This document shows, piece by piece, positions 12,299 to 21,282 of a DNA stretch of 40,076 nucleotides; the first letter of the stretch is position 1; each line of letters opens with the position of its first letter. This DNA is from Rhodoluna limnophila (GTDB lineage: Bacteria; Actinomycetota; Actinomycetes; Actinomycetales; Microbacteriaceae): contig CAMAXJ010000007.1 of NCBI GenBank assembly GCA_945862155.1, positions 1-40,076 on the forward strand, in the 5' to 3' direction. The notes beneath the pieces were generated by a model. That model searched no databases, had not been told where the DNA came from, and saw nothing but the letters and a program-made list of their open reading frames with translations. The position numbers were made by a program, and so were the translations under genes.

Positions 12299-12320
12299 AA
12301 AAAAGCACCTGCTGGGGCTT
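12299..12320 (-). terminator. Probable intrinsic terminator of the LysM gene
   Basis: On the minus strand the stop codon runs into AAGCCCC-AGCA-GGTGCTT followed by T6 in all. The stem has six pairs and one C-U mismatch, so it is modest, but position and T tract fit. Confidence 0.5.
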
Positions 12321-12648
12321 ATGGGAGAGCTAGCTTGTCCCCGGTCGAAAGAGTCGCACTTGATAAGTTGTTCAGCAAAATCACTTCCGCAATCCAATCT
12401 TGCTGAGACTTTCCATCGGAATATGTCTCGGCAAGCCCCCAGAGGGTGTCGCCAGGCATGACCGACACGTAATTGAAGGCGTTGGAACCAATCACGGTCT
12501 CGTCGGTAGCAACGGCACTCTGGTTGAACACCATTCCGGCTAGAACCAGAGCCGAGGCGCTGATCACGAATAAGGTGCGGACAAGCCTGGCGCGGCGCTT
12601 AGGGCTCATTGGGTGGAACTGGACTGTTGTAGCTGTCATCGAGGTCAT
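12319..12648 (-). CDS. Membrane-anchored LysM protein, candidate DNA-damage-induced division inhibitor
   Basis: 109 residues: a basic cytoplasmic stretch (PKRRARLVR, 16-24), one membrane segment (about 25-41), then a C-terminal extracytoplasmic LysM domain (60-108) with VMPGDTLWGLAETYSDG. LysM binds peptidoglycan. A small LysM membrane protein divergent from lexA is the arrangement of Bacillus YneA and of mycobacterial Rv2719c/ChiZ, which are SOS-induced and slow division; that role is inferred here. The leader holds a near-perfect LexA box, and the promoter matches both the sigma70 consensus and the RecA-NDp-type motif. Start ATG with AAGG upstream. There is no hydrolase domain, so cell-wall cleavage is unlikely. 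Confidence 0.85.
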   Translation of the reverse strand: MTSMTATTVQFHPMSPKRRARLVRTLFVISASALVLAGMVFNQSAVATDETVIGSNAFNYVSVMPGDTLWGLAETYSDGKSQQDWIAEVILLNNLSSATLSTGDKLALP

Positions 12649-12670
12649 TTGGAGCCTTTCCTTGAGTTAT

Positions 12671-12686
12671 TCGAACAAATGTTCTA
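12671..12686. promoter_or_regulatory. LexA box (SOS operator) before the LysM gene
   Basis: TCGAAC-AAAT-GTTCTA, matching the Gram-positive/actinobacterial consensus TCGAAC-N4-GTTCGA with two mismatches in the last bases. It lies 22 bases before the LysM ATG and just downstream of that gene's -10, a position suited to repression by LexA. Confidence 0.85.
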
Positions 12687-12695
12687 CTTAGAACA

Positions 12696-12726
12696 AGATT
12701 ACAAGGAACCACCGACATTTTGTCAA
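12696..12726 (-). promoter_or_regulatory. Composite LysM promoter (sigma70 plus RecA-NDp-like motif)
   Basis: TTGACA (12721-12726) and TGTAAT (12698-12703) are separated by 17 bases, close to an ideal housekeeping promoter. Embedded in it is ATGTCGGTG, eight bases, then TAATCT (12696-12718), which matches the mycobacterial LexA-independent damage motif tTGTCRgtg-N8-TAnnnT at every strongly conserved base. Confidence 0.7.
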
Positions 12727-12742
12727 GTATTTGGCAAATTTT

Positions 12743-12758
12743 TCGAAAATGTGTTTGA
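12743..12758. promoter_or_regulatory. Degenerate LexA box before lexA
   Basis: TCGAAA-ATGT-GTTTGA, two mismatches to TCGAAC-N4-GTTCGA, 64 bases before the lexA ATG. It overlaps the -35 area of a lexA promoter whose -10 is probably TAGAAT at 12773-12778. This fits autorepression of lexA. Confidence 0.6.
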
Positions 12759-12822
12759 TATTGGGTCAAATTTAGAATAAAGTTTCGATAACAGCCCAAA
12801 AGGGCCTATTTGAAAGGGTGAA

Positions 12823-13494
12823 ATGGACGCCAAAAAGCCTACTCGCCGGGCCTCAAGCCTGAGCGCCATGCAGGAGCGCATTCTGCAGGCAATTCAGAGA
12901 TCCAAGCTCGATAAGGGTTATGCCCCGAGCATGAGGGAAATCGGGGACGAAGTAGGCCTGTCCTCTCCCTCTTCGGTCACGCACCAGCTGAACCAATTAG
13001 AACTAGCCGGATACATCAGCCGCGACCCTAAGCGTCCCCGCACCATCGACGTGTTGATCGAAGTTGCCGGACTCGAGGCTGACCCAGGTGCAGACGTCGA
13101 AAACGTCACGCCAATTGGTGATGCTGCGATGGTTCCAATGGTTGGTCGAATTGCAGCCGGTGGACCAATTACTGCTGAGCAAAATATTGAAGAGATCTTC
13201 CCATTGCCAAGACAGCTAGTTGGAAAAGGTGACCTTTTCCTTCTAAAGGTTGTTGGTGAGTCAATGATTGATGCAGCCATTTGCGATGGTGACTGGGTTG
13301 TTGTTCGTCAGCAGCAAACTGCTGAAAACGGAGACATCGTTGCAGCCCTTCTTGAAGAAGAAGCGACCGTCAAAACTTTCAAGCAACGAGACGGTCACAC
13401 CTGGCTGCTGCCTAGAAACTCTAGCTTCGAGCCGATCCTTGGCGATCACGCTGTGATTCTTGGAAAAGTAGTAGCGGTCCTAAGAAGCATCTAA
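12823..13494 (+). CDS. lexA: LexA, SOS repressor and self-cleaving peptidase
   Basis: Represses DNA-damage genes and cleaves itself when RecA filaments form. 223 residues: winged helix-turn-helix (about 13-75, with [22 protein letters not shown]), linker, and S24 peptidase domain. The cleavage site is Ala112-Gly113 in RIAAGGPI, the nucleophile Ser147 in GESM and the base Lys184 in ATVKTF; all are intact. Start ATG after GAAAGGGTG. Its last 15 bases overlap the 3' end of hflX on the other strand. Operator-like sites upstream suggest autoregulation. Confidence 0.97.
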
Positions 13495-20501: not shown

Positions 20502-20524
20502 ACAATACTTTTGGCTACCGACAC
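20502..20524 (-). promoter_or_regulatory. RecA-NDp-like (PafBC-type) promoter of recA
   Basis: GTGTCGGTA, eight bases, TATTGT: fits tTGTCRgtg-N8-TAnnnT, the LexA-independent DNA-damage motif known from mycobacteria. The -10 edge is 34 bases before the chosen recA ATG, giving a sensible leader of about 28 bases. Confidence 0.6.
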
Positions 20525-21259: not shown

Positions 21260-21282
21260 ACTGTATCTCCGACTACCGACAA
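21260..21282 (-). promoter_or_regulatory. RecA-NDp-like (PafBC-type) promoter of clgR
   Basis: TTGTCGGTA, eight bases, TACAGT: 8 of 9 in the first box of tTGTCRgtg-N8-TAnnnT and a full match in the second. It lies in the 50-base gap between cinA and clgR; the -10 edge is 22 bases before the clgR ATG. Confidence 0.6.

Follow-up and report, generated by a model that had tools for sequence, protein, structure and literature searches.

The window analysed here, a 40,076-nucleotide stretch of the Rhodoluna limnophila contig CAMAXJ010000007.1, carries beside lexA a small LysM gene whose promoter joins a RecA-NDp (PafBC-type) motif to a LexA operator on one predicted transcript start. We regard it as likely that this gene is an actinobacterial damage-responsive division brake of the YneA/ChiZ type, read from a single composite promoter on which LexA would be the gate and PafBC the accelerator, in series. 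Such a conserved dual-input promoter on a probable division brake is known in kind, and the part worth testing is the composite layout that the brake has in common with a mutasome-type cassette.

The lexA-divergent LysM gene and its product

The two genes and the elements between them are the following.

12319..12648, minus strand: LysM gene, 109 aa, with an N-terminal membrane helix and a C-terminal LysM domain
12671..12686, unstranded: LexA operator TCGAACAAATGTTCTA, beginning 9 nt past the -10 and overlapping the predicted transcript start
12696..12701, minus strand: TAATCT, conserved -10 (TANNNT), 8 nt from the -26 core
12696-12717, minus strand: RecA-NDp motif, ATGTCGGTG-N8-TAATCT
12698..12703, minus strand: TGTAAT, the -10 of the initial annotation, 17 nt from TTGACA
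12710..12717, minus strand: TGTCGGTG, PafBC-type -26 core and left half of the RecA-NDp motif, by column conservation
12721..12726, minus strand: TTGACA, -35-like hexamer, 19 nt from the conserved -10
12743..12758, unstranded: second LexA-box-like site TCGAAAATGTGTTTGA, two mismatches, overlapping the predicted lexA promoter
12755..12783, plus strand: predicted lexA promoter TTGATA-17-TAAAGT, weak (1 found, 0.7 expected in shuffles)
12823..13494, plus strand: lexA (TIGR00498, 224 bits)

The LysM gene is thus transcribed divergently from lexA, as initially annotated, and the named relatives of this lexA are mostly Microbacteriaceae, the nearest being that of a Rhodoluna sp. at 87%. A profile search places a divergently transcribed LysM ORF beside lexA at 126 of the 130 lexA loci, a set that includes some duplicates, and in three of the four loci without one lexA lies close to a contig end. 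Among the class loci the proportion is 46 of 50, in a set to which the promoter pattern itself had contributed four loci. Judged by its divergence from lexA, the LysM gene corresponds in position to Rv2719c/ChiZ of Mycobacterium tuberculosis, with which it shares a LysM membrane protein and SOS boxes plus a PafBC motif facing the gene; the likeness is one of position and not of sequence alignment, and the window adds TTGACA at 19 nt and a downstream ORF that we take, by eye, to resemble hisH.

The protein consists of one helix and one LysM domain, as judged from the Pfam score of PF01476 (27.3 bits against a cut-off of 20.9, the sole Pfam domain above cut-off), a hydrophobic stretch with a mean hydropathy of 2.07, a modelled helix at residues 16-41 and a LysM fold in the domain at about residues 58-109. 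The AlphaFold model has a mean pLDDT of 75.8 and a pTM of 0.45, with pLDDT close to 90 in the C-terminal LysM part, and its PDB fold matches are LysM domains (Z of at most 7.6 over 46 residues, rmsd 1.2), all of them below Z 8, a level that the tool treats as common. A hydrophobic stretch recurs in 125 of 125 members of the LysM family. The protein resembles YneA of Bacillus subtilis in being small, with one N-terminal helix and one LysM domain, and in being encoded by a putative SOS gene beside lexA, yet it falls under the curated cut-off of the YneA equivalog model (NCBIfam NF010723), with 49.0 bits (E 4.4e-13) against 60; it also differs in its candidate second control of the PafBC type. 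Domain order and position are the basis on which the initial assignment to the YneA/Rv2719c type is upheld.

From these features the small LysM membrane protein probably pauses cell division. It is unlikely, in our estimate, that the same control serves a different job, that of a damage-induced wall-binding or wall-cutting factor. Structural support is limited to the LysM fold, with the best PDB chains belonging to hydrolases and other proteins at Z 7.6 or less, and the missed YneA cut-off points the same way, as does ChiZ, which passages of a review (PMC3989709) describe as a wall hydrolase and as a negative regulator of division induced by DNA damage. Against such a role stand the lack of any Pfam domain above cut-off other than LysM, the YneA-like build (109 aa, a single helix, a single LysM), the position beside lexA, and the match of all 75 relatives scanned to the YneA model at E<=0.001. 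As a division inhibitor, the helix-anchored protein would set its LysM domain on the septal wall and halt septum synthesis until repair, acting on the septal synthase as YneA does, which is reported in part of PMC13396833 to stop septal synthesis via FtsW and LysM. The same passages on ChiZ state that its LysM domain does not appear necessary for function (PMC3989709), and since it is apparently dispensable there, unlike in YneA, the LysM step of this scheme is uncertain.

Promoter anatomy and conservation in relatives

The initial annotation had described a promoter of the form TTGACA-N17-TGTAAT, a RecA-NDp-type motif embedded in it and a LexA box just downstream. All the strings it quoted occur at the minus-strand places it gave (TTGACA at 12726-12721, TGTAAT at 12703-12698). 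The embedded motif matches exactly, at its 8-nt spacing, the reported consensus tTGTCRgtg - 8 nt - TAnnnT (given in part of PMC5656591), apart from its first base, which is A and not the weak t, and the LexA box TCGAACAAATGTTCTA overlaps the promoter. What has to be corrected is the N17-TGTAAT register, because relatives keep TAWWCT at 18-19 nt. The LysM promoters of 35 loci, from the genus and its close relatives, were aligned by their LexA box, and 30 showed TTGAC, 18 or 19 nt and TAnnnT (22 with 19 nt and 8 with 18 nt), and TAWWCT was the -10 in 29 of these 30 anchored promoters, TA and the last T having served as anchors. TGTAAT in the 17-nt register was rejected as the functional -10, being found among the 35 genus promoters only in the window and its sister L017. 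By this alignment, the working -10 is TAATCT/TATTCT. A formal sigma-70 scan of the window does not list the LysM promoter, since it requires A at the second -10 position, which TGTAAT lacks.

The -26 element lies in the spacer between these hexamers. In 20 distinct promoters with a 19-nt spacer, picked by TTGAC and TAnnnT and blind to the spacer sequence, TTGACA is present in all 20 (TTGAC being the search anchor, with only the final A unanchored). The successive columns of TGTCGGTG are conserved in 20, 18, 19, 18, 17, 16, 14 and 16 of the 20, and the spacer columns that follow fall mostly to 8-12, with two at 15 and 17, so that the -26 element appears to be under selection. A LexA box with at most two mismatches begins 7-10 nt past the -10 in all 30 TTGAC-N18/19-TAnnnT promoters of the genus set, and the exact RecA-NDp motif is found at the LysM promoter in 12 of the 35 loci, the others being degenerate or without a motif. 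LexA boxes with at most two mismatches number 5 in the 40 kb against 1.58 expected, and a LexA box alone is therefore weak evidence without its position. The exact motif TGTCRGTG-N8-TANNNT occurs four times in the 1.17-Mb genome (63 contigs) to which the window belongs, against none for the reversed pattern, and the window has a single case in which a LexA core follows the motif at 4-16 nt, with 0.00 expected from 100 shuffles. At the sequence level, LexA box and RecA-NDp motif are conserved beyond chance and PafBC is encoded in the genome, in line with the initial suggestion of two DNA damage inputs on one small promoter.

The stacked arrangement was followed through the relatives by varying the spacer of the core TGTCRG-N10-TA from 4 to 16 and counting, for each length, the loci that have a LexA box close behind. 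Spacing 10 forms the peak in 16 of 35 genus-set loci, in 3 of 16 loci of other families of the order and in 27 of 41 loci of other orders (23 of 37 without four loci found by the pattern itself); every other spacing at the lexA-LysM locus has four cases or fewer and the other strand has none. Left out of the class count were L146-L150, of the same family, and L177, L179, L187 and L190, in which no LysM was found. The stacked form is absent from the lexA-LysM locus in all 75 other named Microbacteriaceae loci (L072 being genus locus L025 again). With the spacing-10 peak extending across genus, order and class, the layout reads as widespread and probably old; most of the sampled Microbacteriaceae have apparently lost or altered it, and the lineage of the window has it. 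After removal of the duplicate L072 (125 of 126 loci kept), a RecA-NDp motif with at most one mismatch faces LysM in 82 of 125 loci, many of them with an unstacked element, and faces lexA in 1 of 125.

These counts bear on a simpler reading, that the gene answers to LexA only and that the motif in the spacer is a coincidence. The LexA boxes are indeed the more constant element across LysM promoters, and eight genus loci keep TTGAC-N18-TAATCT and the LexA box with TGTCGG absent. Such a coincidence would have to account for TGTCGGTG columns at 14-20 of 20 against the 8-12 that prevail later in the spacer, for the spacing-specific enrichment of the TGTCRG-N10-TA stack, for the orientation bias of the motif and for the known repair genes that lie behind it in the genome of the window, and we consider this reading very improbable. 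The eight loci (L030, L031, L035, L036, L042, L047, L048 and L050), which may represent one clade, have a spacer of 18 and not 19 nt, as if the promoter had been retuned upon loss of the -26 element.

Loss of the motif does not follow loss of PafBC, since the small-genome relatives L083 and L098 lack it at this locus despite two WYL matches each; a third, L089, with two WYL matches as well, has TGTCGG one nt too near the -10. In one order-level family, G038 (no WYL protein) and G055 (one) are without the motif at lexA-LysM. G095 is without PafC, and its locus L187 is without motif and LysM but stops at the contig end; such cases are too few to count. Because PafC is nearly universal (150 of 158 genomes of the class), presence and absence give little test of the relation. 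In one class-level family (L157, L161-L162, L165-L167 and L171), TGTCAGTG-N8-TA[CG]AA precedes two tandem LexA-like boxes at the LysM promoter.

Most named Microbacteriaceae have a further element, AATGTCRGWGG-N4-TG-N-T-N4-T, which lies near the start of lexA and faces LysM. It has 61 distinct copies, was seen in L066-L145 (in L105, for example, about 85 nt upstream of the start of lexA homology) and in some loci precedes a short palindrome, as seen by eye. The element ATGTCRGWGG was rejected as the same promoter, for the 8-nt spacing and T....T are kept and TA is not; it may be a diverged PafBC promoter or a lexA leader element. Single-mismatch LexA boxes elsewhere in the genome were also discarded as candidates, the reversed control giving 31+30 against 7+8 real sites, which by eye lie inside ORFs with the exceptions of lexA/LysM, the DUF6504 cassette and recA.

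PafBC and the genes behind RecA-NDp motifs

The genome encodes both PafB and PafC, as a pafB-pafC tandem preceded by an FKBP-like ORF and followed by a TatC-like one (both recognized by eye). PafC matches HTH_PafC with 60.4 bits, and the two proteins match the corresponding parts of PDB 6sj9 and 7p5x. With at most one mismatch, the RecA-NDp motif occurs 34 times in the genome against 22 for the reversed control, a modest total excess. The difference lies in where the matches fall: among 30 of the 34 that were examined as loci, 10 lie outside frames of at least 110 codons with an upstream start codon, against 0 of 22 in the control (Fisher p 0.0019), and 8 against 0 of 22 lie outside any such frame (p 0.0078). 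Fourteen matches were counted by eye as promoter-like, including those of hsdM, at 88 nt, and metK. Genes starting 6-47 nt past a motif with at most one mismatch are those for LysM, dnaB, pcrA/uvrD, recA, a ClgR-like protein, clpX, ftsH, radA, recG, a UvrD-type helicase, metK, a secreted protein and DUF6504, and the remaining matches lie inside genes. Of the genes behind the motif, metK, hsdM and that for the secreted protein are not repair genes. Several of these promoters are so close to the start codon that leaderless or near-leaderless transcripts can be presumed. Two neighbouring loci in the window illustrate the pattern.

20502..20523, minus strand: RecA-NDp-type motif of recA, one mismatch, P1-like, 34 nt before the start codon
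20596-20611: LexA box of recA, about 70 nt farther upstream than the motif
21260..21281, minus strand: RecA-NDp-type motif of the ClgR-like gene, one mismatch, 22 nt before the start codon

The ClgR-like protein scores 99 bits, under its cut-off of 170. Mycobacterial recA has two promoters, P1 (PafBC) and P2 (LexA), and recA of this Microbacteriaceae genome shows the same split layout, with two damage inputs on one gene. The LysM and DUF6504 genes differ from it in that both inputs would meet on one start site.

An exact motif lies 88 nt before the type I restriction-modification hsdM-like gene (L006; C25:9559-9580), hinting that a restriction system may be under damage control. Another (L004; C14:7634-7655) is separated by 6 nt from the start codon of a protein of 311 aa that looks secreted and for which Pfam gives no match at E 0.001; given this distance, the transcript would be leaderless.

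Recurrence of the stack and the proposed order of the inputs

The stack of motif, -10 and LexA operator 7-10 nt on is not unique to LysM. In the genome of the window it is found again before the DUF6504 gene (C10:6444-6490, L008/L204), as TGTCGGTC-N8-TACACT with a LexA box 9 nt on, a gap equal to that of LysM, and here TTGACA is lacking. The next ORF has PHP and DNA polymerase III alpha domains, from which we infer a DnaE2. In the genus, 30 of the 43 genomes with the DUF6504 protein were sampled, some of them near-duplicates, and at all 30 loci a LexA box with one mismatch or none lies 8-9 nt past the -10, behind a RecA-NDp motif that is exact in 11, with one mismatch in 13, two in 4 and three in 2. 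A DnaE2-type gene after DUF6504 was seen in the genome of the window and, by likeness, in L270, where the order is DUF6504, a second ORF and the DnaE2-like ORF. The cassette recalls the mycobacterial imuA'-imuB/dnaE2 mutasome, the genes of which answer to the LexA and PafBC systems according to part of PMC10421592; it differs in having DUF6504 followed by a DnaE2-type polymerase, behind a stacked promoter without TTGACA.

Across the class, 49 of 296 genomes carry the exact RecA-NDp motif with a LexA core within 4-16 nt, and no genome carries the reversed pattern. Thirty of the 52 matches were examined, and a downstream gene was identified in all of these but L287. Of the 29 genes, six encode LysM proteins (that of the window and five from small genomes), six are DUF6504-like, sixteen are HEPN_SAV_6107-like and one is dnaB, the proteins being identified by Pfam in 10 cases and by eye, from likeness, in the rest.

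The two-input idea, which the initial annotation had presented as if new, was already on record for the counterpart gene. Passages of PMC8151990 report that in M. tuberculosis a PafBC motif near lexA faces away from lexA and that, together with three SOS boxes, it regulates the neighbouring operon and not lexA; the main text prints this operon as Rv2019c, Rv2018c and Rv2017c, apparently misprints, the title of the supplement giving rv2719c. Several genes carrying both RecA-NDp and an SOS box, and the extension of RecA-NDp to other Actinobacteria, are mentioned in part of PMC8223512. For Streptomyces, the corresponding passages of PMC9380542 state that the known regulators of division have no clear homologues there and that conservation of the PafBC motif was not apparent. 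In the portions of the open-access literature searched, we found no description of a fixed composite geometry on a division brake and a mutasome cassette. Descriptions of dual SOS/PafBC control in mycobacteria concern single genes. The streamlined genome of this freshwater bacterium appears to place both inputs on one start site, with nearly equal spacing, at two outputs that a cell should be slow to activate: arrest of division and, probably, error-prone synthesis.

Binding by both regulators, induction, the input logic and division arrest are what we infer from this arrangement, as follows. In the undamaged cell, LexA on the operator over the transcript start would block LysM transcription. 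Upon damage, ssDNA would lead to RecA filaments and LexA cleavage, and the gate would open; the same ssDNA would activate PafBC, which would join sigma-A polymerase at the -26 element TGTCGGTG and drive the TAATCT -10. In part of PMC11804915, PafBC is indeed described as activated by ssDNA, with PafB on the -26 motif and no binding to promoter DNA without polymerase. Since LexA would block the start, RecA would remove LexA and ssDNA-bound PafBC would recruit polymerase, the two inputs would be arranged in series at a single start site. The TTGACA hexamer, at its suboptimal 19 nt, may allow weak basal reading once LexA leaves, without PafBC.

The inputs could instead be joined by OR logic, the LexA-free TTGACA/TAATCT promoter firing alone and the PafBC-polymerase complex being able to clear LexA, so that the two would respond in parallel to different damage. 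The retention of TTGACA at the LysM promoter, although it is absent from that of DUF6504, would suit this logic. On the other hand, the operator covers the start of the very promoter that PafBC would use, and TTGACA sits 19 nt from the -10, a spacer that is poor for sigma-A alone. The mycobacterial data cut both ways: passages of an eLife 2023 article (PMC10421592) report that under UV and mitomycin C the two systems are partly redundant and that fluoroquinolones act via PafBC only, but also that mutagenesis is co-dependent on both, and in M. smegmatis biofilms, according to part of PMC12702967, expression of dnaE2 remains widespread when pafBC is missing and is chiefly recA-dependent. We place OR logic on the unlikely side and retain the serial arrangement.

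A stricter version of the serial arrangement can be put forward tentatively, and with more doubt than trust: that a composite promoter of fixed geometry, with the PafBC -26 element, a -10 at 8 nt and the LexA operator on the start site, is ancestral to the Actinomycetia and serves them as a coincidence detector, with brake and mutasome needing both LexA cleavage and ssDNA-loaded PafBC. Division arrest and mutation would then follow only when both sensors agree, and recA, with its two promoters, would answer to either. The dnaE2 expression without pafBC in biofilms (PMC12702967) disfavours such a strict need for both inputs. The conserved geometry makes the logic directly testable and supplies a pattern by which genes of the dual regulon can be sought throughout the class. 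Finally, clpX and ftsH have RecA-NDp-like motifs, each with one mismatch, 7-8 nt before their start codons (L205 and L211; C10:31261 and C30:6459), and the ClpX and FtsH proteases could remove the division brake after repair.
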